A DNA stretch of 31,501 nucleotides from a virus. The position numbers were made by a program, and so were the translations under genes. Position 1 is the stretch's first letter; each line of letters begins with the position of its first letter. Positions 4,581 through 31,501 of this stretch are shown here, in pieces. Below the pieces are notes generated by a model. The model was given only the letters and a program-made list of their open reading frames with translations. It did no database searches and was not told where the DNA came from. The stretch lies in the IMG/VR virus record IMGVR_UViG_3300021964_008828, positions 1 through 31,501 of that record, one strand, 5' to 3'.

Positions 4581-4585
4581 ATGTG

Positions 4586-5632: not shown

Positions 5633-5638
5633 GTGTGT

Positions 5639-6053: not shown

Positions 6054-6282
6054 AGGTGATGTAATTGATGTCTTGTATTATCTGCCACTCTGGTCCACGT
6101 GGCAACGGCTTCCTCTGTGGGTAGTCATTCTCGTCTGACATCTCCCTGTATTTGTTTGCACAGGGTGGTCCACAGAACGGTCTGATTATCCTCTTGTCAT
6201 GCTTGGTGTCGTGTAGGCTGTCGTACCAGTAAATTGCGTTGGTGAAAGATTTCTTGCAGACGTAACAGGTGTGATTAGTCAT
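6040..6282 (-). CDS. Small putative zinc-binding protein
   Basis: 80 residues. Cys6 and Cys9 (CYVCKKSF) together with Cys37 and Cys41 (FCGPPCANKYREM) form a plausible four-cysteine zinc site, similar in look to treble-clef or TRASH-type fingers. The remainder is Tyr- and charge-rich. It overlaps both neighbours (14 bases with the ParB-like gene, 8 with the GroES-like gene), so it is cotranslated. Role unknown; a DNA- or protein-binding adaptor is the usual function for such proteins. Confidence 0.68.
   Translation of the reverse strand: MTNHTCYVCKKSFTNAIYWYDSLHDTKHDKRIIRPFCGPPCANKYREMSDENDYPQRKPLPRGPEWQIIQDINYITYETD
6077..6105 (-). promoter_or_regulatory. Sigma70-like promoter for the ParB-like gene
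   Basis: TTGCCA (6100-6105), 17-base spacer, GATAAT (6077-6082) on the minus strand, inside the zinc-ribbon gene. Ten of twelve positions match consensus. A 23-base stretch separates the -10 from the ATG at 6053, leaving a short normal leader. Confidence 0.5.
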
Positions 6283-7394: not shown

Positions 7395-7422
7395 AATAAT
7401 ATGCTCCTATTACTGTTACTTA

Positions 7423-7944: not shown

Positions 7945-8554
7945 CTAAAACCTTTGGTTGGAACTCAAATATTTTAGCATGATACTCGTGCTTCTTGTCA
8001 ACAGGAATCTCTTGGTTGTTCCAACTGAAGTGTCCTGTGTATATTCCCTTGTCAAGTTCTTGGTCATAAGTTGCCGTGTCCGCCCTCAGCCACCATGGAT
8101 CAAATTTGCTGAACTTCGCTGAGAACCAGTCGGGCCTATCTAACAGTATAAGCTCTTTGCTGTCTTTGTCAACCGTGTAGGTAATACCGTCACCCTGCCA
8201 TGAGCTCAGTTCTATGTGGTTGATCACTATCTTGCTGTCCAGTATGCTGTTTGCCTTGCAGAAACACACCGCGGCCATGATCTGGTCATAGGGTGGCTTT
8301 GGTAATTCAATGAACCTGTTGGTGGACTCTTTCTTCAGTGTGACATACAATGGTTCGTCCCTCCACGTGGTGATCGTGTTGGCGAATACCTGTTCGAAGA
8401 GGTTCTTCAATCTGTCGAAGTATTCTGTCTGCTCCTTGAGGCTGGCTGTGTGTGGGGTCAGTGATATGTTAAGTTTGTACTCATTGGCGAACAGTTCACC
8501 ATCAACTATGATTATGCTTTTGAATTTTGTCTTCCAGGAGAATGTGTTTGACAT
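7919..8554 (-). CDS. Conserved hypothetical protein
   Basis: 211 residues from the ATG at 8554; an adjacent TTG one codon earlier is also in frame. The sequence has alternating beta strands and short helices with several aromatic positions (SSWQGDGITYTV, PDWFSAKFSKFDPWWLRAD). No signal peptide, membrane segment or recognisable catalytic motif. It overlaps the DnaE-like gene by 26 bases and should be cotranslated with it. A TAAATA box ends six bases before the ATG and no Shine-Dalgarno is visible. Function unknown. Confidence 0.68.
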   Translation of the reverse strand: MSNTFSWKTKFKSIIIVDGELFANEYKLNISLTPHTASLKEQTEYFDRLKNLFEQVFANTITTWRDEPLYVTLKKESTNRFIELPKPPYDQIMAAVCFCKANSILDSKIVINHIELSSWQGDGITYTVDKDSKELILLDRPDWFSAKFSKFDPWWLRADTATYDQELDKGIYTGHFSWNNQEIPVDKKHEYHAKIFEFQPKVLDGGKNKDK

Positions 8555-8566
8555 CAAAACTATTTA

Positions 8567-8818
8567 CTAGTCGATGTTGACCAGGTCGCCTAGGTCTGGT
8601 TCGTTCCTCAATTTCTTGTTGTTCTTGTGCCACTCCTCGACACGTCTCTGTCTCACTGCGTCCTGGTAGGTCTTCAGTGCCTGTTGCAGTGTGGCCAGCA
8701 TCTCAGGATTACGTCCACGCCTCGCTATGGCAACTTTCCTTGACAGTTCCTTGATACGTTTGGAGATGTCTTCCTCTGACATGTTGCCTATCTCTTCTTG
8801 TAATGGATGGAAGTACAT
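8567..8818 (-). CDS. Small helical conserved phage protein
   Basis: 83 residues beginning MYFHPLQEEIGNMSEEDISK. It is mostly charged helix (Lys, Arg, Glu, Gln), likely a coiled coil, and ends in the acidic motif LGDLVNID. A textbook AAGGAG site precedes the start. I recall short proteins with the same FHPLQE opening and N.I.-type ending in marine T4-like phages, but no known function. An assembly or scaffolding helper would fit its position just beyond the virion genes, but this is inference. Confidence 0.72.
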   Translation of the reverse strand: MYFHPLQEEIGNMSEEDISKRIKELSRKVAIARRGRNPEMLATLQQALKTYQDAVRQRRVEEWHKNNKKLRNEPDLGDLVNID

Positions 8819-8833
8819 GATACTCCTTAGTTA

Positions 8834-9397
8834 TTAAACGTACTGTTTGCCCAGTTGGTGCATCAGCACCGTTGTGCCACCGTCTGGTGACATGAATTCA
8901 AAAAGTGCTCGGCCCAGACCTATCGTAACTTGGTCTGAAGTGCCGTCACTGCCTGTGACATTGTCCGCCTTGATCACCGCACTAGGTAAGGTCAGTATAC
9001 CTGTTGATGTTGGTTGCACAGTGATGTCTAAAATAATCCTGCCCACGGAACCTGTTGGGAAGTTCAAGAATGCGAAAGTGGTGTCAGCGGTTATAGTCAA
9101 TGTTTGGTAATGACCGTTTTCATGATTTAATGTCACTGATCCACTCGAGACCGATCCGTGTGCGAAAATAGTTTCGCTGTTGTCTTTCAAAACTGCATTT
9201 TGTATTGTACTACCGTTGAAATTGTTGGCCGAATCGAGATTTGCCTTGTTTGACTGTATGTTGTCTATCTCGGTCTTGGCTTCCGTGAAGTTGTTCTTTA
9301 TCGCATTGAAATTGTCTCTGAACCCTTGTGAACTGTTGTCCTGTCCCGCTTTCGGGTACGTTGCATCTATGTTTCCTGGTACTATGTTACTTGCCAT
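8834..9397 (-). CDS. Virion structural protein, short member of the NFTE paralogous family
   Basis: 187 residues. The N-terminal motif GQDNSSQGFRDNFNAIKNNF resembles the ANDGTGDTLR..KIN.NFTELY start of the four larger proteins at 12144-17186, so it is a distant paralogue. The C-terminal part is beta-rich (ITADTTFAFLNFPTGSVGRIILDI, GRALFEFMSPDGGTTVLMHQ), suggesting a trimeric fibre or head-decoration fold. I recall the PGNIDATYP..GQDN..QGFRDNF pattern as conserved in marine T4-like phages. It has an AGGA site and a late-type box 30 bases upstream, inside the fibre gene. A virion role is likely. Confidence 0.78.
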   Translation of the reverse strand: MASNIVPGNIDATYPKAGQDNSSQGFRDNFNAIKNNFTEAKTEIDNIQSNKANLDSANNFNGSTIQNAVLKDNSETIFAHGSVSSGSVTLNHENGHYQTLTITADTTFAFLNFPTGSVGRIILDITVQPTSTGILTLPSAVIKADNVTGSDGTSDQVTIGLGRALFEFMSPDGGTTVLMHQLGKQYV

Positions 9398-17217: not shown

Positions 17218-17496
17218 ATGTTCATAGAAACCCTCAAGACCATGAAGTTGTACAAGAGGCAGAGCAAACTGGGTACCATGCACAACTACCACAGGAAGAA
17301 CCTGATCTATGTGTTCAAGTGTGATTCATGTTCTGAGACGTTCATGAGGCCCAAGAGCAGGGTGGATCCTGAACGTGCGTCAAACGACTACAAACACGTG
17401 TGCAGTAAATGTGATTCCAAGAAGTTCGCCCAATCAGTGGGCGTCAAGATGCGTCGGGTTTATCAGTTGGACGCCAGCAGTACCAAGACCCTATAA
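17218..17496 (+). CDS. Small plus-strand zinc-ribbon protein
   Basis: 92 residues from the ATG at 17218. Two CxxC pairs, CDSCSETF (36-43) and CSKCDSKKF (63-71), spaced 24 residues apart, should bind one zinc. The flanks are basic. The segment RKNLIYVFKCDSC resembles zinc-ribbon domains I recall in phage HNH-type or homing endonuclease-related proteins, but no HNH or other nuclease motif is present. It runs against its neighbours and ends overlapping the convergent gene by six bases. Candidate DNA-binding regulator or relic of a homing element; unproven. Confidence 0.68.
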   Translation: MFIETLKTMKLYKRQSKLGTMHNYHRKNLIYVFKCDSCSETFMRPKSRVDPERASNDYKHVCSKCDSKKFAQSVGVKMRRVYQLDASSTKTL

Positions 17497-18234
17497 CTGT
17501 TTCCATCGGATATCATCGCGACGGCCATCTATCCATCTCTGTAGGTCAGCGTAGATGCCACACTTTATATTTGGTTGGTCGAAGTACCAACGCAGGAACG
17601 GATTGCCCTCAAGATATTCCTTGCGATTAATAAAGTAGAAGTTTGTTTTAGGAAATTTCCTGAACGTCTGTCTGAGTTGGTACATCCATTCATACTTGAG
17701 GTAGGCCTTCATGCTTTCACGTCCTGGATAGTTGATGGAATCTTTGTATATGTTGTTCTGTATCCTGCTGGGCGTGTCCATCTCCCATTGCTGGGCACCC
17801 ATTATGTCAAACGCCATTATGACGATGTTCTTGATGCCTGACTCCGCGGCCATCAACACCGCACTACAACCTGAACCACGTGACTTGGAGAAGTCCTTGG
17901 TCTTGATCTTTCCACCCTTCTTGACGTCACCACCACGCCATACCCTGTAGATCTTAAGTCCCTCGGGTATATCCTGCTCGTGATCGCCCTCGCAGATGTA
18001 GTTCCACATGCTGACGTCATCTGGACCGTAGATGTGTGGAGACTCCTTGCCGTCGTTGTGCCATTGTGATAGTTCTTCAAACATTTCAGGGCTGACACTT
18101 ACTATGTGATCACACAGCATGGGATGATCTCGGTATATGGCATTGCAACCGTATATGGTGCCTTTGCCTTTTAATGTTTCTATTGGGAAGATGTTCCTGG
18201 ACTCACCGTTGCCTATTATGAAAGCGGTGTCCAT
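17491..18234 (-). CDS. GNGESR-type protein 1, possible glycosyltransferase-like Rossmann protein
   Basis: 247 residues from the ATG at 18234, which overlaps the stop of the IscA-like gene by one base (TAATG). The opening FIIGNGESRNIF and GCNAIYRD resembles the nucleotide-binding start of GT42 sialyltransferases and DUF115-like proteins (GNGPS..., CN.FY). A second copy of this family lies at 28542. The middle has a GSGCSAVLMAAESGIKNIVI segment typical of a second Rossmann-like helix. Likely a sugar- or nucleotide-binding enzyme, substrate unknown. It is the last gene of an operon with radical SAM and Fe-S carrier genes. Confidence 0.62.
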   Translation of the reverse strand: MDTAFIIGNGESRNIFPIETLKGKGTIYGCNAIYRDHPMLCDHIVSVSPEMFEELSQWHNDGKESPHIYGPDDVSMWNYICEGDHEQDIPEGLKIYRVWRGGDVKKGGKIKTKDFSKSRGSGCSAVLMAAESGIKNIVIMAFDIMGAQQWEMDTPSRIQNNIYKDSINYPGRESMKAYLKYEWMYQLRQTFRKFPKTNFYFINRKEYLEGNPFLRWYFDQPNIKCGIYADLQRWIDGRRDDIRWKQL

Positions 18235-18569
18235 TACACGCCAAACGACTCTCCACAACCGCATGCGGAAGTTGAGTTTGGATTTGATATCTCGAACTGC
18301 GATCCGAAGGTCTCCTCCACCCAGTCGATCTTGGTGCCCATGACATACAACAACGAGGTCTCATCCACCACGAACCTGCCCGTGGTCCAGTCTTCAACAT
18401 GGTCTCCACTGTTGACATTGGCCTCCGTGTCTGCGAATCCCCATTCGTACTTGAATCCTGCACATCCACCACCCAGCACCGCCAGGCTGACCGCGTACTT
18501 GCCCGTGTTCTTTTCCAGCAGTCGTTCTATCTGTGCCTTCGCGGCATCTGTTATTTCAAATGGTTTCAT
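18234..18569 (-). CDS. A-type iron-sulfur carrier (IscA/HesB family)
   Basis: 111 residues from the ATG at 18569. Longer in-frame starts would lie inside the neighbour and add an unrelated tail. The family core is complete: ITDAAKAQIERLL, LGGGCAGFKY with Cys36, and SACGCGESF with Cys103 and Cys105, the three cluster-binding cysteines. A-type carriers pass Fe-S clusters to target enzymes, chiefly [4Fe-4S] proteins. Length is normal. It sits in the same operon as a radical SAM enzyme, which needs such a cluster, so a supply role is attractive though inferred. Confidence 0.88.
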   Translation of the reverse strand: MKPFEITDAAKAQIERLLEKNTGKYAVSLAVLGGGCAGFKYEWGFADTEANVNSGDHVEDWTTGRFVVDETSLLYVMGTKIDWVEETFGSQFEISNPNSTSACGCGESFGV

Positions 18570-18577
18570 ACTATTAA

Positions 18578-18907
18578 TTATCCATCCCTGTTGCCCATGT
18601 TCTGCACTCCGACTGCTAACCAGAACCTCGATGCGTCCTTCTTCTTTTCGAAGCTCATGTAACTGTTCTGTTCCTCCCAGTGGTGCCATTTTTCTGTGAA
18701 TAGATTCTTCTGTTCGAACCACCAACCCCACTTGCCCTCACAGTTGACCTGGCACCACTCGATGCACTCGCCCATGATGCCGTTGCTGTTCATGTCCACA
18801 TTGAAGCGGAACTTCTTCTCGTAGCCACAGTCCGCTGGTATCTCTGCAAGACCTGCCTTTGCTTTTTTAACTTTTATTTTTCCGTAATTCCTACCAACTT
18901 GTTGCAT
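18578..18907 (-). CDS. Conserved hypothetical, Trp/Cys-rich
   Basis: 109 residues. The N-terminus is basic (KIKVKKAKAG). The middle carries IMGECIEWCQVNCEGKWGWW with three cysteines within nine residues and several Trp, followed by an amphipathic C-terminal helix. Three close cysteines plus a fourth (Cys27) could bind metal. It overlaps the radical SAM gene by 17 bases and precedes the IscA-like gene, so it belongs to that group by position. Family not recognised. Confidence 0.6.
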   Translation of the reverse strand: MQQVGRNYGKIKVKKAKAGLAEIPADCGYEKKFRFNVDMNSNGIMGECIEWCQVNCEGKWGWWFEQKNLFTEKWHHWEEQNSYMSFEKKKDASRFWLAVGVQNMGNRDG

Positions 18908-19907
18908 GATCTAAATTCCATTTATTTGCTGAACATTTTTCACCGCACTCTTGCACAGATCCAAAATCATTGAAAAGTTTTGACCAGTAAGGATCATCAA
19001 GCACTTCTCCCAACGTTTGCTTAGGTTTAATGTAATCAAATATGTTTTTGTTGTGTCCATATCTCAGTGCAGTCCAACAGCAAGGATAAAATTTGCCTCG
19101 GGCATTCAAAAATAGTCCTTTGTTACCAATCATACACAATGGTATGACTGAAGAAGCTTTACTTGTATTATAAAACCTTTCTGTGAAAATATCAATGCAG
19201 TTGTCGTGCCATTTTTTACCAGTCAGTGGTGTTGCAGTTCTAGTGAATCTTCCCGAAGAAATAAATTTCTCACTAGGTTGTAATGGATCATTCTTTGGAT
19301 ATGTTCCGTAATTTTTACCAAACTTAGAACTTAATGTCAGTTGAAAACTGTCGAACCCCAACTCCCTGGCCAATTCCTTGATATGGCTAATTTTATTCTC
19401 GTTGAATTTAAATGCTATGCTGGCCCAGGTCTTGAATGCTTTTGTGTGTTTTAACACATTCACACCCGTCATGATGGATTTCCAATTGCAATTTACTCTG
19501 TAGAGATTATTGGAGTTCTGATCCCATCCATCTATGGAAAAATGTATATTATCCCTTTGGTTTAGTATTTTGTTTAGTTCCTCCCACCATGTTTTAGTTT
19601 TATAAGAGCCATTGGTCACTATCACGAATTGTACTTGATCATTGTTCTCCCTGAACCATGCAAGTATCTTTAATAGATCTTTTGCATAGATCGGGTCACC
19701 GTCATCACCACAGAATGTAAGTTTCTTAACTTCCGATAACAGTTTACCTGTGAAATTATTCTGGAACCATTCTAAATTAAGATCTCTGTTGATCAATCCT
19801 TCCGGAACTTCTTGTCTGCTACATCTCGGACAAAGTAGACTACATTTGGAACATAGTTCTATGTGCCAGTGTTCCAGCGGCCAGTTGTGAGAATTTTTAA
19901 AAATCAT
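18891..19907 (-). CDS. Radical SAM enzyme with C-terminal Cys-rich (SPASM-like) region
   Basis: 338 residues from the ATG at 19907, whose ATGA overlaps the stop of the glycosyltransferase gene. The cluster motif Cys22-x3-Cys26-x2-Cys29 lies in LCSKCSLLCPRCSR, followed by LTFCGDDGDP where other members have GGEP. The C-terminal third carries CCWTA and C..KC pairs, as in SPASM or twitch extensions binding auxiliary clusters. Radical SAM enzymes of this form modify peptides, sugars or RNA. The coding region looks more AT-rich than the virion genes, consistent with separate acquisition. The target is unknown. Confidence 0.85.
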   Translation of the reverse strand: MIFKNSHNWPLEHWHIELCSKCSLLCPRCSRQEVPEGLINRDLNLEWFQNNFTGKLLSEVKKLTFCGDDGDPIYAKDLLKILAWFRENNDQVQFVIVTNGSYKTKTWWEELNKILNQRDNIHFSIDGWDQNSNNLYRVNCNWKSIMTGVNVLKHTKAFKTWASIAFKFNENKISHIKELARELGFDSFQLTLSSKFGKNYGTYPKNDPLQPSEKFISSGRFTRTATPLTGKKWHDNCIDIFTERFYNTSKASSVIPLCMIGNKGLFLNARGKFYPCCWTALRYGHNKNIFDYIKPKQTLGEVLDDPYWSKLFNDFGSVQECGEKCSANKWNLDHATSW

Positions 19908-20602
19908 TTCCAGTTGTCTATTACCCACTGATCCGCACACTCCATTGGGTTAGGTGATCCGTGGAACACCGCGACCTTGTTAAGGGGTGCAACCTTGCAA
20001 GGTTCACGGAAGAACTTTTTTCCGTCTTGCGTTAATAATTTAGTATCTTTTAATCCTATCATCTCCCACTTGTAACTCCTGATCCACTCGTCCGGGAACC
20101 ACGTGATCTCGTCCTTGGCCCTCTTGGTGATCCAGTCCTGGTCTCCATGGTTCTGTTGCATTATTCTTGCCGAATTACCCTTGAATTCGTTCCACAGGTA
20201 GTCCATTGTGCCACTCTGCCATCGCATGCAACTGCTGTTTGAAAGTTTCCAGTCCTTGATCCTGCACCTGTTGAAGTCCCTGATTATGTTGAACTTGCCC
20301 GTGTGCGTGAACAGGGGATCTATGTTGTCGAATATCACAACGTCAAGGTCGAAGAATAATATGTTGCCTTTGAGGGGCATCTCGGGTGCGAACATCCACA
20401 ACTTGCTCCACCATGATTTCACACATGGGTCCGTGGGCAACTTGATCACGTTGATGTCCGGATCCAGTCCGTTAGCATCATCGGTCAGACAATGGAACTG
20501 GTAAGGCACGGTTGTGTGTCGCTTGACCATGCTGTTGAGAACATTGGCGTACTTACTCACGTATTTGTTGCCCCACTTTACACACACCACGTGATTAGTC
20601 AT
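19904..20602 (-). CDS. Putative glycosyltransferase with DxD motif
   Basis: 232 residues. NILFFDLDVVIFDNIDPLF (80-98) contains the DxD (Asp85, Asp87) expected to bind metal and sugar-nucleotide in GT-A enzymes, with the hydrophobic strand before it. KSWWSKLWMF and VFHGSPNP (near 213-220) are shared with phage and bacterial GT8-like proteins I recall. Its start overlaps the oxygenase gene by eight bases and its stop overlaps the radical SAM start by four. Possible substrates: host surface glycans, modified DNA bases or virion proteins. The enzyme class is likely, the acceptor unknown. Confidence 0.75.
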   Translation of the reverse strand: MTNHVVCVKWGNKYVSKYANVLNSMVKRHTTVPYQFHCLTDDANGLDPDINVIKLPTDPCVKSWWSKLWMFAPEMPLKGNILFFDLDVVIFDNIDPLFTHTGKFNIIRDFNRCRIKDWKLSNSSCMRWQSGTMDYLWNEFKGNSARIMQQNHGDQDWITKRAKDEITWFPDEWIRSYKWEMIGLKDTKLLTQDGKKFFREPCKVAPLNKVAVFHGSPNPMECADQWVIDNWK

Positions 20603-21173
20603 TGAAGTATCCAGTCACTGTAAGCACATATCTGTCAGTAATCCCAGCATTCACAAGCCCATGTATTTCGTCTCTGTCCCATACATACACTTCGCCTTTT
20701 CGCCAGTTGTTGATCGCCCATTCCTTGCCGTAAAATATATGACCGACCGCGGCATCTTGTAGCGGTATCCACAGACGTATTGTTTTTTTATTTTCTTCTA
20801 GAATATCTGTCCTACTGACAGTGTCTTTATCGGCAAGATTCCTCGGTGCACTAGGACATACATCTATGTGTGGTGGTGAAAAATGTCCGGGTGGGGTCAT
20901 TATTATTCTGCCCCAGCACTTTTCTTTGTTGATATTGTGCTTGTTTAGGAATCCGTTATCAATAATTGTTAGTATGTCTGGTCTCCATGTCATGAAATCT
21001 GTTACTGCTTTAGAATAAAATCCTTGCACTTTCTTTTCCCAACTTGTCCTGATGCCTGCGTCATACCCTATAACTTCCTCGTAGACATCATTATATACCT
21101 CCGGTTTTGTGTTTTTACAGTATTCCAGTAACTGTGTAAAATTAATTTTTATATCATCTATTTTTCTTATCAT
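20595..21173 (-). CDS. Fe(II)/2-oxoglutarate-type oxygenase, Asp/Asn hydroxylase-like
   Basis: 192 residues. The ATG at 21173 has AGG seven bases before it and lies seven bases after the PP-loop stop; an ATG at 21194 is an alternative. His102-x-Asp104 in PPHIDVCP and His171 in DEIHGLVNAG form the iron triad. A basic residue follows in DRYVLTVTG (Arg181), the usual 2-oxoglutarate contact. WGRIIMTPPG and TIRLWIPLQD are typical cupin strands. The closest look is to aspartyl/asparaginyl beta-hydroxylases. Substrate unknown; the neighbours suggest a small-molecule or peptide modification. Confidence 0.75.
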   Translation of the reverse strand: MIRKIDDIKINFTQLLEYCKNTKPEVYNDVYEEVIGYDAGIRTSWEKKVQGFYSKAVTDFMTWRPDILTIIDNGFLNKHNINKEKCWGRIIMTPPGHFSPPHIDVCPSAPRNLADKDTVSRTDILEENKKTIRLWIPLQDAAVGHIFYGKEWAINNWRKGEVYVWDRDEIHGLVNAGITDRYVLTVTGYFND

Positions 21174-21180
21174 ACAGTGC

Positions 21181-22398
21181 CTATTTAAACGCATTTTCCT
21201 TGACTCTAAAAAGTCTTTCGTTGACTGGGAACAACGGTATAGGTTTTGTACATATTCCCACCAAAGTTTTATTTTTTTTGTCCAGGAATCTTGAATCAAC
21301 ATTGTCCACGAGTTCGTCATCGAAAAATTTATCAGCCAAGTATTTCCTGGTTGCCATCCCCTGACAGTCTTCTATGACATTTTTATTCAATCTGCTATAC
21401 CAATCTCCATTGAGCTTGGTGGTACCTGACTGTAGGAAGTGACTGATTGCCTTATACCCCATTTTTTCTATCAGCCTTATGTAATGTAGGCTATCCTTTG
21501 AACTCACATGCATACTGTTTTTCCTGTTTGGTTCTAGTCCCTGTTCGAGGAATATATTCTGCATCTCCTTGGCCTTGGTCCATGCTAGTTTTTTAATCAG
21601 GTCTGGACAAGCATCATTTAAAAAAAACATGCACACGTCTATCTCTGGATCCATAGCACCTAAAGGTAGTTCATGAGAATAGTTGATCATGTGGAAACAC
21701 CACCAACCGTTGTGTATCACAATATCGGGTTTTTCTTTACCCATCACCAGGACCTTGCGTTTTCCTGTTGTAGGTATTACGATTTTTCCACTATTTTGTG
21801 ACCAAGTTGAGTGGGGTCTGTAATCCACGTGAAAGGCACCTATTTTGTGATCCTGTAAACTGTTTGCAAAGTGTCCCACGTCATTCGTCTGCCAGGGTTT
21901 GGCAATAGTGAACTTCCATTTCAGGTCCCTTATGGCATCACTGTGTTTAGCTTTGATGCACCTTTTCATGTGATTCCATAGTTCCTGTTTGTCCTTATTT
22001 GCGTAGTGTTCTGTGAGAGCTGTATGGAGGAAATGTATGTTCTTAGTTCCCCTCCTTTTGAAAGCATCACACACTGTTTCACTGTCAGTGCCTCCGCTAT
22101 ATCCTACCACAATTTCATCATATGTGTCCTCGAGGTATGCACAAATTTCTTGTCTATAGTATTCTATTTCATATTTCGGTTCTTGTGTCCAGTCTGGATC
22201 GCTTCCTGAAAACATGTCCAACCCCACATGGAAGTGGATAGGATCGTTGAGATTTTTACTGAAGTCTTTGTAGGCATCTATGTCGTTGTAGTGTACCCTG
22301 TCGCCCACTGTGTAGTATATAGGGTACACTTTCTCCTTGCGGTTATCGACAATTTTATTGAGGTCATCTATTATTCTTTTACTCCCAGAAGACCTCAT
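21181..22398 (-). CDS. PP-loop ATP pyrophosphatase-type protein
   Basis: 405 residues from the ATG at 22398, with AAGG nine bases upstream. EIVVGYSGGTDSE (95-107) is the PP-loop of N-type ATP pyrophosphatases (asparagine synthetase, PAPS reductase, QueC and tRNA-thiolase families), which adenylate a carboxyl, amide or carbonyl. The remaining sequence does not match any of these closely. The middle has Trp/His-rich stretches and the C-terminus is helical. The start overlaps the TctC-like gene. It likely activates the substrate of the pathway to which the oxygenase and radical SAM belong; that is inference. Confidence 0.78.
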   Translation of the reverse strand: MRSSGSKRIIDDLNKIVDNRKEKVYPIYYTVGDRVHYNDIDAYKDFSKNLNDPIHFHVGLDMFSGSDPDWTQEPKYEIEYYRQEICAYLEDTYDEIVVGYSGGTDSETVCDAFKRRGTKNIHFLHTALTEHYANKDKQELWNHMKRCIKAKHSDAIRDLKWKFTIAKPWQTNDVGHFANSLQDHKIGAFHVDYRPHSTWSQNSGKIVIPTTGKRKVLVMGKEKPDIVIHNGWWCFHMINYSHELPLGAMDPEIDVCMFFLNDACPDLIKKLAWTKAKEMQNIFLEQGLEPNRKNSMHVSSKDSLHYIRLIEKMGYKAISHFLQSGTTKLNGDWYSRLNKNVIEDCQGMATRKYLADKFFDDELVDNVDSRFLDKKNKTLVGICTKPIPLFPVNERLFRVKENAFK

Positions 22399-22408
22399 AA
22401 TCACTGCC

Positions 22409-23200
22409 TTACTTCTTCTCAGCAATTTCAGCCAGAAAATTGCTTACTTGCTTGTAAGAAGTGTCCCACTTGCTGTACTTGGTGTCTTTCCTGTTGGTCC
22501 AAGCATTGCTCTCATGTACTGTATCCTGCACGTTTTCTGTACCAACGATTACATAGGCGTAGCCGAGCTCACTGAATTTGCTCGTTGTTCCAAGACTTTT
22601 ACCTGTAACTATGCCTTCGTTTGTTTCGCCTAAAACGATCAAACAAGATTCACCATCTTTTGGTATTGTCGACATTTTGTAATCAACTTCTCCAGAAGGT
22701 AGTGCTGTTTTGAATTGTTTGCTTTTGTACCTGATCACTTTTGCTTCGGGGTTGGCTGACATGATGAAGTCGGTCTGTGGAACACTCCAGAAAGCACTGT
22801 CCCAAACTGCAACTTTGATCTTTCCTTTTCTAAAGTAATCCATGCTGGCCGCTTTTTCATTATCAGACAGGTGACACACATAGTATGGTGCACTGGCCAA
22901 TGTACCTTTGAAGTATTCTCTGTCAACAAGGCAACTGTTCCCTTCTGCAAGATATTCAACACTCCACGCGGCCACAGTTGAGTTCTCATTGTTTTCTATA
23001 ACTCTCTTCGCCGCCGCACATCCTTTTACGTTAATGAACTGGCCAAACTTATCTCCTAGTGATTCGGCTATGAGATCATTCATCCTGTCTGTTAGTCCGC
23101 CTGCTCTGCTGTATTTGACCACATCGATTTTGTCCGAAGCAATTGCCGTGGACAACCAACAACCAATGATCAAAATCATAATTGTTATTGTTTTCTTCAT
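22409..23200 (-). CDS. TctC-like periplasmic binding protein (tripartite tricarboxylate transporter)
   Basis: 263 residues. A cleavable signal peptide (about 1-21, ending STAIA) is followed by VVKYSRAGGLTDRMNDLIAE (27-46) and KFGQFINV (51-58), matching the TctC/Bug start V.P.PAGG.TD...R..AE.L...LGQ.V.V. It is shorter than usual (about 300-325), and the later GA.G segment is replaced by CAAAK. A cysteine-containing loop may be disulfide-linked. A strong AAGGA site lies upstream. It precedes the PP-loop gene and follows the permease gene by 28 bases, so the two transport genes form one unit. Confidence 0.78.
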   Translation of the reverse strand: MKKTITIMILIIGCWLSTAIASDKIDVVKYSRAGGLTDRMNDLIAESLGDKFGQFINVKGCAAAKRVIENNENSTVAAWSVEYLAEGNSCLVDREYFKGTLASAPYYVCHLSDNEKAASMDYFRKGKIKVAVWDSAFWSVPQTDFIMSANPEAKVIRYKSKQFKTALPSGEVDYKMSTIPKDGESCLIVLGETNEGIVTGKSLGTTSKFSELGYAYVIVGTENVQDTVHESNAWTNRKDTKYSKWDTSYKQVSNFLAEIAEKK

Positions 23201-23228
23201 TTTTTTTCCTTTTTTGTTGTTAACATTA

Positions 23229-24560
23229 TCAGCTCAAATACAACTGATAAATTCTATAAAAACTATCGACTAACGGTTCGCTGAGTACAAAGCCAAACAC
23301 CAAAGGGGTCATGTCCCTCGATATGCATAACAGTCCTATCGGTATTAAGATAACAGTGATAGTCACTTGATTGAACGCATTGAATTGCTGTGCTCCGACT
23401 ATGTAGTTCATCAGTAGTAGAAACGTCACGATGCCAAGATAAACGTAGGATACTTTCATGTTGTTCAACACAGACAGTAAATTGACGTATTTGCCCGCCA
23501 ACACCAAACCAATGGAAGCACTTACTAAGAAATAGAAAACCACCTGCGAGAACAGGTCCGAGAACCATGCTATGTCCACGGGCATGCCTCGTGATTCCAG
23601 TATGTTGTAAATCAAGGCTTCACTGGCTGTGATAGGTATTCCCAGAAATAACAAAGGAACCATTTGTGTGAATGCCCCAGCGTTGTTGGCACTTTCGCTA
23701 GCGATGAGACAGTTGACATCTCCCCTCTTGTAAATCTTTTTCTTCACTCTTATCCATCTTTCAATGCTGTAGGCAAGCATACTACTAAATGCATACGCAA
23801 GGCCTGGAACAAATCCTCCGATGCTACCTAGTATACTGCTACGGAATAAAGTGGTCTTGTGTTTCCACATCTGTTTGAATGATTCCGCGTATCCAGAAAA
23901 TGTCATTGTCTTGAATTCTATTTGATTTTTGTTTTTTAGGTATGACGTTGCCAACATCGGTACGACGAACAGTGATGTCAACACACTCAGCATAGGCAGT
24001 CCTGTCTCCAGAAACTCCAGACCCAGGGTGTACATCATCTTTCCCTGGTCCTCGTGCCAGCCCACGTTGGCCAGTGTTATCCCAAAGAAGAACAGAAAGA
24101 GGTTAATGATCATGTTGTTTTTGCTCACCATACAAACTGCTACGGTGGCTATGCCAAAAAAAAGACTTTGCAACAGCGTGTTCCAAATTCCATAAGCGAG
24201 AAACAAAAACGGCAACAGACTTATTATCAACAGAACACTGAACAGGCTGGCAAACCAACTGCCTATGGCACTGAACATGATTGCCTTGTCTCCCTGGCCT
24301 TGTCGAAACATTTCGTGTCCCTCGATCATTGTGGGCACACTCATTGAACTGCCTGGCATGGCCAATGTGATGGCGGTGACACCTCCAAAAAACTGATCTA
24401 TGCTGATAAGGGTGATGTAGAAAATTAATATGTTGGCAGGATCTAGGGAAATCAACACCGGGTATGCCAGTGTCATCATCACAAGGCCTCCCACGCCTGG
24501 CATGATGCCACTAAAAATTCCACCTATTATACCTGCTACAAAAACCGCAACTGTTTCCAT
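23229..24560 (-). CDS. TctA-like permease (large subunit of tripartite tricarboxylate transporter)
   Basis: 443 residues with about ten to twelve hydrophobic segments. Family motifs: GIMPGVGG (18-25), FFGGVTAITLAMPGSSMSV (57-75), GHEMFRQGQGDKA (81-93), and in the second half GGFVPGLAY, ESANNAGAF and LLFLGIPITASEALI. These are the hallmark repeats of TctA, the large membrane subunit that carries tricarboxylates or other acids with TctC. It is somewhat shorter than the usual ~500. No gene for the small subunit TctB is seen nearby. Uptake of a host-type substrate during infection is the natural inference. Confidence 0.88.
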   Translation of the reverse strand: METVAVFVAGIIGGIFSGIMPGVGGLVMMTLAYPVLISLDPANILIFYITLISIDQFFGGVTAITLAMPGSSMSVPTMIEGHEMFRQGQGDKAIMFSAIGSWFASLFSVLLIISLLPFLFLAYGIWNTLLQSLFFGIATVAVCMVSKNNMIINLFLFFFGITLANVGWHEDQGKMMYTLGLEFLETGLPMLSVLTSLFVVPMLATSYLKNKNQIEFKTMTFSGYAESFKQMWKHKTTLFRSSILGSIGGFVPGLAYAFSSMLAYSIERWIRVKKKIYKRGDVNCLIASESANNAGAFTQMVPLLFLGIPITASEALIYNILESRGMPVDIAWFSDLFSQVVFYFLVSASIGLVLAGKYVNLLSVLNNMKVSYVYLGIVTFLLLMNYIVGAQQFNAFNQVTITVILIPIGLLCISRDMTPLVFGFVLSEPLVDSFYRIYQLYLS

Positions 24561-24564
24561 GCTC

Positions 24565-24663
24565 TCATTTTAACACATTTTTAAAGTCAATGCTAGTGAA
24601 AACACATACGGCACGGCCTGTTCTTATGGCTTTTACAAAGGTCGCTTTCTTCGCCGACGTCAC
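24565..24663 (-). other. Short open frame in the gap before the TctA gene
   Basis: Between 24561 and 24687 no larger gene exists. A 32-residue frame starting GTG ends two stop-linked bases before the GAGAGC preceding the TctA ATG. Its composition (Lys, Arg, Val, Thr, Ala) is peptide-like, but its length is compatible with chance. It could be a leader peptide or the remnant of an older gene. No promoter is convincing here: TTGACT and TAAAAT are present but only 12 bases apart. Confidence 0.2.
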
Positions 24664-24687
24664 TTATGATCAAGTGGCGTTGCACAA

Positions 24688-25794
24688 TTATTTAACCTTA
24701 TCATTGGATGCATTCAAAAATCCTGGAAGCATTCCCTCCATCTGTATTTTTTTCCAATCCTTGGTATCGAGGTTGTATTGATACTCTGTTTCAATTGCTG
24801 GACTGACTATTGTTTTTATGCTTGTTATATTTAAATTATTACTCATTACTTCATGTACATCATGTATCGATGCATTTGTGCCAAAAGTCCTTTGTAAATC
24901 TATCTGGCCTATTTTGATATATCCTAATGATAGTTTTGGATCTTCCCATTCATACCCGTTATATTTTAACCATGTCCTGTACCTATCCATTTCTTCTTTC
25001 TTGAAGTCTTGTTTTTCTGTGATTGTTTGTCCCCATTCCACGTCAAACTCTCCGGAATAGTATTTTTGATGATTAATTTCAGAACATAGTGCTTCTGACA
25101 TTTTCGGTGCACCTTCGTCTCTGAATACCTCGTACAATGTTTTGCCCACTTGGCTCCAGTGCAGATACACTCCGCCCAGTTCTCTGTCGTACCTATTCTC
25201 TTTGAAAAGTTCAAAGTCCAACTCGTGTAATTCGTACCTAGGTGCATTCAAGAATGTTGTTATTTGTGATGGTCTCATCCATTCAGGATTCACCTTGCTT
25301 TTTCTGTAAGAAAGAACCCAGCTTTCTATTTCGTGACATATATTATTCAACTGTCTTATCGCGTACTTGGTGTTTGGGTCTGCCTGTTTGTAAAAATTAG
25401 ATAACTGCCATGCTGTGCCTTGCAGTTCTTCAAAATACCTGTGTAAGAGATTACATGCTTCATGTTTTAACTTCAACCCAGGAAAATATCCATCTATGTC
25501 ACGCCCTATGGGGAGGCTGGCACTGTATTGGAAGTCATCTGCACGGAACGGATGTATCTTCTCATAGGGTGGGTCAAAACTAAATGAATTGATTTGTGCA
25601 ACATTCGTGTTTAGCTCGCCCACGAGATAATTTAGATCTCTTTCGGAGTCAGCCCAACCCAAGAAGCAGAAATTCTTCTCCAGTATCCTCTTTTGTTTTA
25701 GATTGTCCTTGAGTGCATCCAACCACCTGTGTCCCAAGGGTGTGTCGTACACCTGGAAGTAGTAGGATTTGTTTGTGAGGCCAACCCTCACCAT
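24688..25794 (-). CDS. Unknown protein of the accessory block
   Basis: 368 residues from the ATG at 25794; a GTG at 25860 is in frame but lies inside the neighbour. No signal or membrane segment. It is rich in Trp, Tyr and charged residues, with recognisable but unassigned stretches such as FFLGWADSERD-like NFCFLGWADSERDLNY, GGVYLHWSQVGKTLYEVF and SGEFDVEWG. No nucleotide-binding loop, cysteine cluster or metal triad is obvious. It follows the PTPS-like gene by 13 bases and appears AT-rich. A role in the same pathway is possible. I do not recognise the family. Confidence 0.65.
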   Translation of the reverse strand: MVRVGLTNKSYYFQVYDTPLGHRWLDALKDNLKQKRILEKNFCFLGWADSERDLNYLVGELNTNVAQINSFSFDPPYEKIHPFRADDFQYSASLPIGRDIDGYFPGLKLKHEACNLLHRYFEELQGTAWQLSNFYKQADPNTKYAIRQLNNICHEIESWVLSYRKSKVNPEWMRPSQITTFLNAPRYELHELDFELFKENRYDRELGGVYLHWSQVGKTLYEVFRDEGAPKMSEALCSEINHQKYYSGEFDVEWGQTITEKQDFKKEEMDRYRTWLKYNGYEWEDPKLSLGYIKIGQIDLQRTFGTNASIHDVHEVMSNNLNITSIKTIVSPAIETEYQYNLDTKDWKKIQMEGMLPGFLNASNDKVK

Positions 25795-25807
25795 GTCATG
25801 TATGAAC

Positions 25808-26257
25808 TTATGATCTGGTGTAGATGGCACTGTTGGCTCCGTGTTCCATGCATTCCACACTCTCCACGAAACATCTGTTGTCTGTCTTCTCCCGGATCAG
25901 TTTGTCAGCGAAGTCAAAGGCGTGCTTGGCGAACATCTCCGCACCAACACCATCGAACACCCTGATCTCCGCGAGGTCCATTTGTTCCAGTTCCTTGAAC
26001 TTGTCCATGTGTGGGTCATTCTTGTCCACTGCGGTCTTGTGATCAAATGAATCTTCAAGCCATGCCTTCAGGGGTTTGAGTCCTCCGAAGTCCACCGCCC
26101 AGTTCTTGTTGTCTAACTCATTACATCCAAATGTGAATTTGAACGCCAGGCTGTATCCGTGTATGAGGTGGCAGTGTGAATGGTCTGCGTTGGGTTGTCT
26201 GAACACACAGGCCAGGCCTATATTGTGTCCGTATGTTTTGGTCGAGTAGTAAGTCAT
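25808..26257 (-). CDS. 6-pyruvoyl-tetrahydropterin synthase/QueD-like protein
   Basis: 149 residues of the PTPS/QueD T-fold. HSHCHLIHGYSLAF (26-39) holds the zinc and catalytic region, VDFGGLKPLKAWLE (55-68) is the strongly conserved segment, and SFDHKTAVDKNDP (70-82) and FVESVECMEHG supply the rest. The usual HGH becomes HGY, so one zinc ligand differs from the standard enzyme; I recall a bacterial PTPS-like subgroup with this HGY form. QueD makes the precursor of 7-deazaguanines. No QueE, QueC or GTP cyclohydrolase with normal motifs is seen beside it. AGGAG and a late-like TATAAAC precede the ATG. Confidence 0.82.
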   Translation of the reverse strand: MTYYSTKTYGHNIGLACVFRQPNADHSHCHLIHGYSLAFKFTFGCNELDNKNWAVDFGGLKPLKAWLEDSFDHKTAVDKNDPHMDKFKELEQMDLAEIRVFDGVGAEMFAKHAFDFADKLIREKTDNRCFVESVECMEHGANSAIYTRS

Positions 26258-26288
26258 CGTTTCTCCTTGCGTTGATGACCTGCAGAAT

Positions 26289-26295
26289 GTTTATA
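26289..26295 (-). promoter_or_regulatory. TATAAAC promoter-like box before the PTPS-like gene
   Basis: TATAAAC on the minus strand, 31 bases before the ATG at 26257, with AGGAG in the leader. There is no good -35. Closest to a late-type element; it could drive the accessory operon. Confidence 0.42.
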
Positions 26296-26327
26296 GAGGG
26301 ATGAAAGTCTTGAAGTCCTCTTGACCA

Positions 26328-26582
26328 TCAGTTCAACTTCTTGTCGATCTTCTGGTCCATGTCCATCTGGAACGCCGTGTCTCTGATGCGATCCGTCAGT
26401 TCGTTGGGTATATTTAACTCTCCATCGATGATGCTCTTTAGGAAGTGTATCATCACCGTGAACTCGTTCCTGTTGGCCACAGTCTCTGGATCTATGCCGT
26501 GCTTCTCCATTACGTTCAGCATGGCCTCAGACACGTCCACCAGTGCAGTTATGCTCTTGGAGTGTTTGTCAAAGTGTGCCAT
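26328..26582 (-). CDS. Small conserved phage protein
   Basis: 84 residues, largely helical and acidic/basic mixed, beginning MAHFDKHSKSITALVDVSEA and ending in MDMDQKIDKKLN. It shares one base with the preceding Lsm-like gene (TAATG) and is therefore coupled to it. I recall proteins of this size and position near the Lsm-like gene in marine T4-like phages. No motif. About 70 bases of non-coding sequence separate it from the next gene, which contains the TATAAAC box. Confidence 0.65.
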   Translation of the reverse strand: MAHFDKHSKSITALVDVSEAMLNVMEKHGIDPETVANRNEFTVMIHFLKSIIDGELNIPNELTDRIRDTAFQMDMDQKIDKKLN

Positions 26583-26887
26583 TACGTGATTATGCTGGGT
26601 TTCTTGGGAACCTCGATCTTGCTGAACACCCTGTTGTACTCCTCGGCTATCTTGTCATTGATGTGTGCTATGGATATCAACTTGTCAGTGGCGATGTTGA
26701 AAGGTTGGTCCTGTCGGGCTGTGGAGAAAAAGGTACCGAACGCAAGACCCTGTGGTCCGTTCATCAGTACCAGTGCCTTCTCGATACTGACGTACGTGTC
26801 GGCCTTGCCCGTGAATTTTGCTATGACTTCTTCCCCCGAAGCCAGTTTAAGAGTAACTAGATCTCCATCTTTTATTTTATCAAACAT
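26582..26887 (-). CDS. Lsm-like small beta-barrel protein
   Basis: 101 residues. DGDLVTLKLASGEEVIAKFT (7-26) and ADTYVSIEKALVLMNGP form the bent five-strand Sm-like pattern (a glycine between strands, then V.I..), a feature I recall for a conserved protein of T4-like cyanophages. The C-terminal third (DKIAEEYNRVFSKIEV) is a helix plus a tail. Sm folds usually bind RNA or make rings. The gene starts five bases after TATAATA with a perfect sigma70 promoter and no Shine-Dalgarno. RNA binding is inference. Confidence 0.68.
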   Translation of the reverse strand: MFDKIKDGDLVTLKLASGEEVIAKFTGKADTYVSIEKALVLMNGPQGLAFGTFFSTARQDQPFNIATDKLISIAHINDKIAEEYNRVFSKIEVPKKPSIIT

Positions 26888-26893
26888 ATGCTT

Positions 26894-26921
26894 ATTATAA
26901 ACTATCCTGCGAGTTTGTCAA
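26894..26921 (-). promoter_or_regulatory. Perfect sigma70-type promoter for the Lsm-like gene
   Basis: TTGACA (26916-26921), a 16-base spacer, and TATAAT (26894-26899), all consensus, on the minus strand. The ATG lies six bases after the -10, so the transcript would be leaderless or nearly so. The element lies in the 3' end of the glycosylase gene. Confidence 0.8.
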
Positions 26922-27312
26922 TGTATTTCCGCAACTCCTTGTCCTCGACGTTGGGTGGAATGTGGTTGAAGAAGAATATCTGGTAACTGTCAGACCCGTA
27001 CTTGCCTATGCCGTGTAGGTCACTGGCCTCCTGTTTGTCCCAGGTCAGGTACTGTTCAGTCATGCGCCTTATCCGTTTTGAACGCACCTCCCACATGCCC
27101 AGGGGTCGCAACATCTCCTGCTGTGTTTTGAGCCTGCCACGCAGGTACGCCTCAGGGTTGGGATATCTCTTGAAAAGTTTTGGAAGGATTATCTTGACGT
27201 GCTTCCTGTACGTGAGGTTGAGGCACATCACGGCCACCATGTGTTTCCATCTCTTGTGCGGGGCCTTCAGTTGCTGTTGCACCATCAGGTGATCCACCAT
27301 CGGTCTGATCAT
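26902..27312 (-). CDS. MBD4-like HhH-GPD DNA glycosylase
   Basis: 136 residues. LHGIGKYGSDSYQIF (99-113) is the helix-hairpin-helix-Gly/Pro-Asp motif in the form found in eukaryotic MBD4 (LHGIGKYGNDSY). Asp108 sits at the position of the catalytic Asp. Upstream CLNLTYRKHVKIILPKLFKRYP and MLRPLGMWEVRSKRI also follow MBD4. MBD4 removes T or U from G:T and G:U mismatches at deaminated cytosines. The iron-sulfur loop of endonuclease III is absent. It would be a base-excision enzyme protecting phage DNA from deamination or removing modified bases; specificity is untested. Confidence 0.85.
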   Translation of the reverse strand: MIRPMVDHLMVQQQLKAPHKRWKHMVAVMCLNLTYRKHVKIILPKLFKRYPNPEAYLRGRLKTQQEMLRPLGMWEVRSKRIRRMTEQYLTWDKQEASDLHGIGKYGSDSYQIFFFNHIPPNVEDKELRKYIDKLAG

Positions 27313-27319
27313 ACTTTAT

Positions 27320-27347
27320 ATTATAAATGGTATATTGATATTGTCAA
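27320..27347 (-). promoter_or_regulatory. Perfect sigma70-type promoter for the glycosylase gene
   Basis: TTGACA (27342-27347), 16-base spacer, TATAAT (27320-27325), on the minus strand. The ATG at 27312 comes seven bases after the -10, so the message should have almost no leader. The -35 overlaps the stop of the radical SAM gene. Confidence 0.8.
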
Positions 27348-28540
27348 GCAACCAGGTTAGATAATTCAGGCCACAATTTGCCAAATTTGCTTTGGTTGTT
27401 GAAAATATTTTCGTTTTTTTCAATGAATGATTTACACTCGTTGACTATTTCGCTAGATGTGTTTTGTTGGACCAGTTTATATTGGTCTATTTTGCCTAGG
27501 AAAAACTTTTTTTCTGCTTCATCCACATCCGTTGACAAGTATTTTCTAATTTCGACTATTACTTTGTCAAGCACATCCTTACCATAATTGTCCACACACA
27601 GGGCGGACGGCTCCTGGAATTTCTGCCAAACGATTTCAATCTTATCTCTGTGGGGATTTCCCTTGTCGAACTTACTGGGGAAGAAGGAAAGTGCTTCCTT
27701 GGCAAATTCCCTTAATTCGCAAAGTCGCGTGGCATTAAGCAAATGGAAAAGACTCAAGAATTGTATCTCGTGGTCGTTTTTCTCTGGAGGATTACGAACT
27801 TGTTTACCCAGTATCTTTAAATTATCTAAAACACGTTGCCATTTTGATTCTTGTCTCACATACTCATACCTAGCACCGATGTTTTCAAGGCTGATGTGCC
27901 AATGCACTTTTCTTTTAGCAAGTAATTTCTCAAAAACTTTACTTTTTGTTATATCTGTGCTGAAATTTGAAATAACATCTACAGTGGTGTGTTCGGGGAC
28001 TAAATCTAGTAAATCTGCATTTTCTTTCATTAACAAAGGTTCGCCACCAACCATCGCCACCGTTTTTAATTTTTTGTTATTTTTCGAAAAGAATAATTGT
28101 ATTTTTTCTTTATGATCCTTTACTGGTTTTGATTCATGTTGTGAAAGCAAAGAAGACCATTTGGAACTTAAATACGGTGAGCAATATGTACAGGCACTGT
28201 TACAGGTGTTGTTCCAACGTGCGTCGAATATGACCGGAAACTGGTAATCAAGATTGGCTGTGCCTATGTCAAAATCTTCATTCAAAGAATTGTGCCAATC
28301 TTTTTCACTTTTAATTTTACTTTCCGATGCATGAATACATGATCCACAATATTCTTTATGTAACACACCAGACTTGATAGAAGTCCTGACTTCTTTTAAT
28401 TTCTCGTTTGACAATGCTGATTCTATTGTGTCTGTGTTAATGTTACCTAGTTTAAATGCACCGGCACAGCAGGTCGAAATACCGCCGTCAACTTGAATGT
28501 GTAGGCCTCTCCATGGAGCGGCACAATAATTTTTAGACAT
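27344..28540 (-). CDS. Second radical SAM protein (twitch/SPASM-like N-terminal Cys)
   Basis: 398 residues. Cys113-x3-Cys117-x2-Cys120 in TCNSACTYCSPYLSS is the SAM-cluster motif, and GGEPLL follows (about 165-170). It begins with CAAPWRGLHIQVDGG and TCC, then CGSC (65-68), an N-terminal Cys set that in twitch-type radical SAM proteins binds an extra cluster. Two long helical tails follow. It starts just after the stop of the GNGESR-type gene (28542), two bases away. Sequence is AT-rich relative to the virion genes. Target unknown; the second of the two radical SAM genes in the window. Confidence 0.83.
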   Translation of the reverse strand: MSKNYCAAPWRGLHIQVDGGISTCCAGAFKLGNINTDTIESALSNEKLKEVRTSIKSGVLHKEYCGSCIHASESKIKSEKDWHNSLNEDFDIGTANLDYQFPVIFDARWNNTCNSACTYCSPYLSSKWSSLLSQHESKPVKDHKEKIQLFFSKNNKKLKTVAMVGGEPLLMKENADLLDLVPEHTTVDVISNFSTDITKSKVFEKLLAKRKVHWHISLENIGARYEYVRQESKWQRVLDNLKILGKQVRNPPEKNDHEIQFLSLFHLLNATRLCELREFAKEALSFFPSKFDKGNPHRDKIEIVWQKFQEPSALCVDNYGKDVLDKVIVEIRKYLSTDVDEAEKKFFLGKIDQYKLVQQNTSSEIVNECKSFIEKNENIFNNQSKFGKLWPELSNLVA

Positions 28541-30487: not shown

Positions 30488-31013
30488 TCTTGATGCCCAG
30501 TTGTGCGTACACCTTCTGCACTTTCCTCGCCTGGAAATAGCAGTCCTCCAAGGCGTTGTGTAGTCCTGTCCTCTTCTCGTTGGGATCTCTTGGCACAAGA
30601 CTGAACAGTGTTCTCGAATCCCTGATCTGCCAGTACTGCCATGGTTGTGGGTGTCCCAGTTGTGTGTATAAATTCTGTAGTATGGCGTAATCAAACAACG
30701 GACCTTGACACCAGAAAACGTCAACCCCCACACTCCACTTGTTGATGGTCTTGATCATGGCGTCCAGTGATATCCTGTCCTTGTCACCCAAGGCCTCTTC
30801 CATGATCTCCGGGTCCTGTCTGCCCCACCAGTCCAGTGTGTCCTGCATGACGTCCCTGCCCATCTCAGTCTGTGAGTCCACGTCCACACGGAAGTACATG
30901 CCCTGTGCGGGTTCTACGGTCGTGTATGGATCAAACTTCACACCACCCACCGTCAGTATGGTGGCGTTGGGATTGGTGCTCAAAGTCTCCAGATCTATCA
31001 TTGCGTGGATCAT
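30474..31013 (-). CDS. dexA: DexA-like 3'-5' exonuclease (DEDD family)
   Basis: 179 residues. MIDLETL (5-11) gives Asp7 and Glu9, LFDYAIL (106-112) gives Asp108, and LHNALEDC (151-158) gives His152 and Asp157, the full DEDDh set. The spacing and the DWWGRQDPEIM segment follow T4 DexA and Rv2179c-type enzymes. T4 DexA degrades single-stranded DNA from the 3' end and trims DNA ends. The start overlaps the RimK-like stop by four bases (ATGA), so it is cotranslated with that gene. Confidence 0.85.
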   Translation of the reverse strand: MIHAMIDLETLSTNPNATILTVGGVKFDPYTTVEPAQGMYFRVDVDSQTEMGRDVMQDTLDWWGRQDPEIMEEALGDKDRISLDAMIKTINKWSVGVDVFWCQGPLFDYAILQNLYTQLGHPQPWQYWQIRDSRTLFSLVPRDPNEKRTGLHNALEDCYFQARKVQKVYAQLGIKNARR

Positions 31014-31501
31014 ATTCTTATCCCTGCGTATTTGAAAATCTTCTCTGGCACGTTGATGCCCGTGGCCTTCTCGAAGCCTCGGAACCCTGGAGCGGAGTTG
31101 GCTTCACATACCCTGTAGCCGTCGTCGGAGAACAGTAGGTCCACGCCACATATGTCTAGGTCCAACACCCTGGCCACCTGTAGTGCCAGCATCTCCATCT
31201 CGTCATCTAATGCATATGTCTTGGCCGCCCCGCCCCTGGAGACGTTGGCCCGGAAGTTCCCGTCCGTGCTGGATCTCTCCATGGCGCCTATCACCTTGCC
31301 GCCCACGACGATCACCCTCAGGTCTCGCCCAGCGGACTCCTTGACGTACTCCTGGATGATCATGGAGTTCTTTGAGTCCAGTGATGCTATCAGTTCCTGC
31401 AGATCCAAAAATTGTTTCAGTGTCTCGCACAGGTACACCCCCGCACCGTGTGAACCAGTCACCACCTTGATCACGCATGGCAGGCCGATCTGTTTCTCCA
31501 C
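31010..31501 (-). CDS. rimK: RimK-like ATP-grasp ligase (5' part outside window)
   Basis: 163 residues are present; the N-terminal part lies beyond 31501. The first visible codon is an internal GTG rather than a proven start. LPCVIKVVTGSHGAGVYLCE, IIQEYVKESAGRDLRVIVVGG, MERSSTDGNFRANVSRGG and VDLLFSDDGYRVCEANSAPG are, in order, the ATP-grasp segments of RimK. RimK adds glutamates to the C-terminus of ribosomal protein S6 and related ligases join amino acids or peptides to carboxyls. Host ribosome or phage protein modification would follow. Overlaps the exonuclease by four bases. Confidence 0.9.
   Translation of the reverse strand: MEKQIGLPCVIKVVTGSHGAGVYLCETLKQFLDLQELIASLDSKNSMIIQEYVKESAGRDLRVIVVGGKVIGAMERSSTDGNFRANVSRGGAAKTYALDDEMEMLALQVARVLDLDICGVDLLFSDDGYRVCEANSAPGFRGFEKATGINVPEKIFKYAGIRI

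Follow-up and report, generated by a model that had tools for sequence, protein, structure and literature searches.

The DNA that we examined, virus record IMGVR_UViG_3300021964_008828, comprises 31,501 bases and is called the window below. It contains T4-type genes for a clamp loader, baseplate wedge/tail-fibre connectors, an exonuclease, spanins and an endolysin, in agreement with the T4-like genome that had been proposed in an earlier, sequence-only reading of this DNA. The clamp loader is of the gp44 type (phrog_168, 2e-78), and its identity to those of other IMG/VR contigs reaches 100%; gp23 lies outside the window, which is a 31.5 kb fragment. On the minus strand, a tight run of genes encodes, in order, a TctA permease (23229-24560), a TctC/Bug-type solute-binding protein (22409-23200), a PP-loop ATPase (21181-22425), a protein resembling Fe(II)/2-oxoglutarate oxygenases (20595-21320) and a glycosyltransferase (19904-20602, phrog_1962), which closes the run. 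The oxygenase-like protein, an optional partner of the first three, matches PF05118 below the cut-off (E 0.0024), and its gene has a likely ATG start near 21173, a few bases past the stop of the PP-loop gene. It belongs to cluster c2 (E 1.2e-21), whose members recur near the same genes in other phages. The glycosyltransferase is linked to these genes only in the window and in record L089, and the two homologues are 86% identical. Elsewhere in the window, a QueD gene (25808-26257; PF01242 4.8e-14; phrog_2389 3.4e-40), two radical-SAM/SPASM-type genes (27344-28540 and 18891-19940) and part of an S6-glutaminyl-transferase-like (RimK-type) gene (31010-31501) make this a rich biosynthetic region.

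The PP-loop neighbour had also been recognized in the earlier reading, and we found its SGGTDS motif together with a PF01171 match at E 0.007, below the cut-off. Its ORF starts at TTG 22425 or ATG 22398, and it overlaps with, or directly adjoins, the end of the gene for the binding protein. Over 28 members of this phage family, G101, G102 and D104 of the PP-loop signature are invariant, and S105 is present in at least 90%. The protein matched no Pfam family over its cut-off, and the fold comparison gave no PDB match at E<=0.001; the weak fold matches (E 0.006-0.05) were to CysD, GMP synthetase, LarE, NadE and AsnB. Since QueD and radical-SAM genes are present in the window and the protein shows a weak match to QueC (E 0.02, below the cut-off), it might be supposed that the enzyme carries out a QueC-like step of 7-deazaguanine DNA modification together with QueD, and that the transporter brings in a precursor. 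However, QueC is matched by only 1 of the 28 members, which together with the sub-threshold score rules out QueC as the identity of the enzyme, and the QueD cluster lies beside the transporter genes only in the window and L089. We regard a 7-deazaguanine route as very improbable.

The permease and the binding protein

The profile search settled the identity of the permease, previously read as TctA. The 443-aa protein matched PF01970 with an E-value of 1e-61 and 209 bits (cut-off 28.9), spanning positions 3-407 of the 423 in the profile. In an alignment with Salmonella TctA and three others, the invariant positions of the family are kept; compared with bacterial TctA, the phage protein lacks about 17 aa at the N-terminus and 60 aa at the C-terminus. 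The TctA family has the motif G-x3-G-x3-G-x2-P-G-x-G in TM1 and repeats it in TM7 (PMC5812351). In the window protein, the TM1 motif is complete (G10, G14, G18, P21, G22 and G24), and the TM7 copy is partial, with G245, G249, P252 and G253 present and the outer two glycines substituted. Residues G14, G18, P21, E289 and N293 are shared by 35/35 TctA sequences of the phage lineage. Residue E314, which immediately follows the conserved GIP motif (GIPITxSEA), is acidic in 30 of the 35; the aligned bacterial TctA proteins have no acidic residue at this position, which may bear on the substrate. No TctA structure was found among the solved structures searched.

Phage TctA proteins share 24-30% identity with their best cellular matches, and that of the window is at most 30% identical to the matches that were kept. 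When we calculated a tree, a fully supported branch separated the 35 phage sequences, including that of the window, from all bacterial ones, and this separation was stable under a mixture model and after removal of the longest branches. Another type of phage TctA, with a length of 499 aa and nearer to the bacterial ones, occurs in three gp23-bearing contigs (L187, L188 and L190), directly preceded by a 354-aa TctC-like gene, and no PP-loop gene was found in these three. The second phage branch may or may not join the first, either arrangement being possible (AU p 0.24). Two TctA genes are present in the 316-kb record L332, a virus of jumbo size; one is bacterial-like and encodes 500 aa, and the other is of the phage kind and lies inside a full set of TctA, binding-protein and PP-loop genes.

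Many bacterial-like TctA genes occur in IMG/VR (L091-L141), which raises the question of whether phage and host DNA were misassembled into one contig or whether the window crosses a prophage boundary. Against this, the window TctA belongs to the separate, fully supported branch of 35 phage sequences and has the low cellular identity given above, and the same genes are found in gp23-bearing contigs of 160-218 kb. In addition, L089, which comes from another sample than the window, carries the same gene group between closely similar flanks: over window positions 17491-27312 the flank genes are 78-88% identical (one 65%), and the TctA, binding-protein and PP-loop group is 31-49% identical. This group, located beside tail-fibre genes, has been exchanged or is diverging faster than its surroundings. 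Contamination is ruled out by the tree, the gene context and the gp23-bearing genomes, and a joining error or prophage boundary is hardly credible.

The 263-aa protein encoded by the neighbouring gene, which is separated from the TctA gene by 28 bases, has a signal-like segment at its N-terminus and contains an AGGLTD motif. The window protein alone gave no Pfam match at E<=0.1 and only chance matches to PDB sequences, so that the TctC-like label of the sequence-only reading must have drawn on features beyond a single-sequence profile search. The label was borne out by the family profile, the predicted fold and the motif, which agree with each other. The family alignment contained 28 phage homologues whose genes all lie next to a phage TctA gene, and PF03401 was matched by 5/28 relatives of the window protein (best E 4e-4). 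When the family profile was compared with the PDB, all the best matches were TctC/Bug proteins, with BugE at the top (4.6e-10) and TphC, BugD and a terephthalate-binding protein among the other top matches (2dvz, 7ndr, 25hk, 4x9t and 2f5x, besides the terephthalate-binding protein). An HMM of bacterial TctC matched nearly all of the phage family, with the window protein falling below that list. Using hhalign, the phage family matched bacterial TctC at 99.0% (E 3e-18), and the four members nearest to the window protein did so at 91% (E 1e-6), compared with 0.1% for unrelated controls. The AlphaFold model of the window protein (pLDDT 86.5) pointed the same way: ranks 1-12 of its PDB fold matches are all TctC/Bug proteins with the two-lobed TctC fold, at moderate TM-scores of 0.5-0.67. 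Its best viral fold matches were proteins of uncultured Caudovirales (E 5e-9 to 5e-8). Based on this family evidence, we file the window protein as a divergent, predicted TctC-type protein, although it fails the single-sequence Pfam search.

It has been known that, within the loop motif P-F-x-A-G-G-x-x-D, the AGGxxD loop holds the ligand carboxylate in BugD (PMC5812351). The corresponding loop of the window protein is Y-S-R-A-G-G-L-T-D, in which AGGxxD is present and PF is gone. The full motif is seen in record L170 (PFPPGGGSD), and many distantly related phage members have lost the complete carboxylate loop (e.g. GSKTG, GSANG). The four cysteines of the window protein are conserved in the family, and nearly all phage members have an even number of mature cysteines (2, 4 or 6, usually 4), compared with bacterial TctC proteins, about half of which have none. 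These paired cysteines may form disulphides.

Recurrence of the gene group in phages and the absence of TctB

Single-sequence IMG/VR searches with the window TctA or binding protein returned nothing, and the phage TctA family was found there only by way of a mixed TctA alignment. Scanning IMG/VR with the phage TctA alignment then yielded at least 38 further loci, all with TctA over the cut-off and four with two copies; these record counts are lower bounds, since the scans require exact peptide patterns. gp23 is present in 11/39 records, including contigs of 160 to 218 kb. We counted linkage among 32 phage TctA genes, non-redundant at 90%. The binding-protein gene lies within 285 bases on the same strand in 31 of them and the PP-loop gene within 4.5 kb in 29, and both partners are present in 28. 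With the permease (A), binding-protein (S) and PP-loop (PP) genes so abbreviated, the order was PP-A-S in 11 cases, A-S-PP in 9, PP-S-A in 5 and S-A-PP in 3, indicating that the link survives reshuffling. All three genes are under purifying selection, with dN/dS values of 0.06-0.14 where dS was measurable, dS being saturated in many pairs. TctA, the binding protein and the PP-loop enzyme form a conserved phage module and not a one-off.

Several records show further features of this module. L090 contains two tandem sets of PP-loop, TctA and binding-protein genes (3244-6594 and 7371-11058), each TctA having a separate PP-loop gene; between the two sets is a 2OG-oxygenase-like gene. In L170, a gp23-bearing record of 216.7 kb, a Gram-negative porin gene (PF13609, 4e-38) is located two genes upstream of the TctA, binding-protein and PP-loop genes (945-6059), and porins are also found away from the module in L174 and L181.

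We also looked at records without the permease. Records related to the window by the clamp loader (69-100% identical) had no TctA above the cut-off. The PP-loop gene was absent from 39 such TctA-less relatives, in which the sole matches to the binding protein were signal-peptide stretches of 36 residues. The co-absence of the three genes is suggestive, these relatives being themselves fragments. The PP-loop profile had no match in 87 bacterial TctA loci. A reciprocal search from the PP-loop protein, in which two sub-alignments were used, gave 11 new records, 5 of them with TctA and the binding protein adjacent. In L325-L327, which represent one phage type with a record of up to 166.6 kb, and in L340, the PP-loop gene has the binding-protein gene before or after it and the record has no TctA, and the TctC-type genes matched the bacterial TctC HMM at E 2e-23 and 6e-16. 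In L340 a gene that seems to be of the Rieske type lies next to this pair. The remaining two, L337 and L339, have the PP-loop gene alone, among tail-fibre genes. Based on L325-L327 and L340, the permease is dispensable in some phages; the steadiest pair is the binding protein and the PP-loop enzyme, and TctA is usual but not universal.

TctB had been reported missing from the window, and we found none there. A wider search gave the same answer: 0/39 phage records, up to 218 kb long, had a match over the PF07331 cut-off, and neither a match to a TctB HMM nor a small multi-span gene was found beside phage TctA. In the bacterial comparison, TctB is adjacent to 69/96 TctA genes. Several of the 39 records exceed 130 kb, though none is marked complete, and the absence of TctB is therefore not merely an effect of fragments. 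For the records examined, a fused TctB is ruled out, phage TctA being shorter, and a hidden one is ruled out by the PF07331 and TctB-HMM searches. TctA without TctB or TctC is also found in Archaea (PMC5812351); the variant here is TctA with TctC and without TctB, and a TctB-less TctA itself has precedent. In the records examined, the PP-loop gene is nearly always, and TctB never, beside the phage TctA/TctC pair. The tie that had been drawn between the transporter and its adjoining enzyme gained in strength, as the TctA/TctC pair, the lack of TctB and the PP-loop link recur across dozens of phage contigs.

Proposed function

Based on these observations, we suggest, with a probability of roughly 55%, that TctA and TctC act as a two-part version of the tripartite tricarboxylate transporter (TTT), importing at the front end of a small pathway, in which the PP-loop enzyme adenylates the carboxylate or its product. 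First, the TctC-type protein would be secreted into the periplasm of a Gram-negative host cell, where its AGGxxD loop would capture a small carboxylate. Second, the phage TctA, without TctB or with that of the host, would move the carboxylate across the inner membrane by an ion gradient. Third, the PP-loop ATPase would adenylate the carboxylate or its product, preparing it for coupling with an amine, ammonia or sulphur donor. Finally, in some phages the product may be further modified by a 2-oxoglutarate oxygenase. The direction of transport, the carboxylate nature of the substrate, the adenylation and the use of the product are what we infer from the genes.

PP-loop enzymes such as GMPS, NadE, AsnB and LarE adenylate a carboxyl or carbonyl oxygen before attack by an amine, ammonia or sulphur. 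Adenylation by the phage enzyme would fit, by analogy, a transporter family that mostly binds carboxylates, and because the fold matches of the enzyme itself are weak, this chemistry is a guess from its superfamily. The porin of L170 would complete a route through both membranes, which fits uptake. Radical-SAM, SDR, carbamoyltransferase or AsnB-like genes are found near the module in individual phages, and together with the 2-oxoglutarate oxygenase they suggest that processing of the product varies from phage to phage. Against the importer model, the permease is dispensable in L325-L327 and L340, and the carboxylate loop is gone in many distant members. The uptake of an acid for the adjoining pathway, which the sequence-only reading had put forward as possible, is a prediction, and some relatives retain the PP-loop enzyme with the binding protein but have no TctA.

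Here, we need to consider that TctA and TctC might form an ordinary auxiliary uptake system that works with the TctB of the host and serves the metabolism of the infected cell, boosting the import of, for instance, citrate, a dicarboxylate or the 2-oxoglutarate needed by oxygenases, as carbon source or co-substrate, while the PP-loop gene does a separate job. TctC proteins bind many carboxylates (PMC5812351), single uptake parts such as the phosphate-binding PstS of cyanophages are known in phages, and 2OG-oxygenase-like genes recur near the module. However, the PP-loop gene accompanies the module in four gene orders, is missing where the module is missing and is retained with the binding protein in the TctA-less L325-L327; it was also not found next to bacterial TctA. 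We consider auxiliary uptake alone unlikely. A role in the envelope instead of import, in which the permease and the periplasmic protein would sense a ligand or block a superinfecting phage or competing uptake, seems improbable. It is true that T4-like phages carry envelope proteins that block superinfection, that tail-fibre genes are found close to the module in both the window and L089, with the PP-loop genes of L337 and L339 also among such genes, and that transport by the phage pair is itself a prediction. Nevertheless, the conserved TctA core is kept throughout the phage lineage (35/35 sequences), the two-lobed TctC fold is kept, and the steadiest partner is a cytoplasmic ATPase.

The importer model can be carried further. 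The module might be a self-contained pathway to acquire and activate an acid, in which a TctB-free importer supplies a new PP-loop family that adenylates the acid for a phage-specific product; a modified nucleotide, a cofactor or a virion decoration would be candidates. This extension is tentative, and the odds lean against it. Many large phages carry the permease, the binding protein and the dedicated enzyme together; the genes are under selection and their order is shuffled, and for these reasons the three must matter to one another. As a natural experiment, the module could show whether TctA functions when TctB is absent, and it points to a so far unrecognised metabolite that is worth some effort to large phages.

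Comparison with known systems

The sequence-only reading had cautioned that similar phage genes might already be known, and this proved justified. Among marine-virus papers, PMC4164917 mentions a tctA domain on SUP05 viral contigs in passing, and PMC8115048 does so for 'tricarboxylate transport' close to norB/nirK on a T4-like scaffold. These genes, from marine virus contigs and compared here by description only, possibly belong to the same phage lineage; the mentions are of one clause each, with no analysis of TctC, TctB or a PP-loop gene. In UniProt, the uncultured Caudovirales proteins that gave the best viral fold matches (A0A6J5L7K0, A0A6J5M1T7 and others) are annotated automatically as 'PBP2_Bug_TTT domain containing protein' or 'Bordetella uptake protein'. 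Beyond the two passing mentions, we found in the open-access literature no account of the module, the missing TctB or the PP-loop partner. GenBank phage records gave no match to the binding protein or the PP-loop protein, and their TctA matches were only bacterial-like genes in contaminant or short contigs.

The module resembles bacterial TctCBA (TC 2.A.80; PF01970, PF07331, PF03401) in the TctA family and its core and in the adjacent TctC/Bug gene on the same strand at tight spacing. It differs in four respects: the phage records are without TctB; the phage TctA is shorter and forms a separate branch; the binding protein has paired cysteines and falls below the Pfam cut-off; and the module is coupled to a PP-loop ATPase that is missing from bacterial loci. 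This ATPase shares the SGGxDS motif and the superfamily core fold with the PP-loop ATP pyrophosphatases (GMP synthetase, NAD synthetase, AsnB, LarE, CysD), but unlike them the phage family does not reach any Pfam cut-off, and the fold comparison gave it no PDB match at E<=0.001.

Phage nutrient-uptake genes are usually single stolen parts. Like cyanophage PstS and other auxiliary metabolic genes, the module would let the phage contribute to nutrient uptake with a periplasmic binding protein or part of a transporter, and the TctA-less phages with a binding protein resemble the cyanophages that carry only PstS. In contrast to PstS, the module mostly adds a permease, its ligand is probably organic, and its steadiest partner is an enzyme. 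The TctA/TctC pair, found without TctB and nearly always beside one ATP-using enzyme, suggests that some large T4-like phages import a small acid and chemically activate it during infection.
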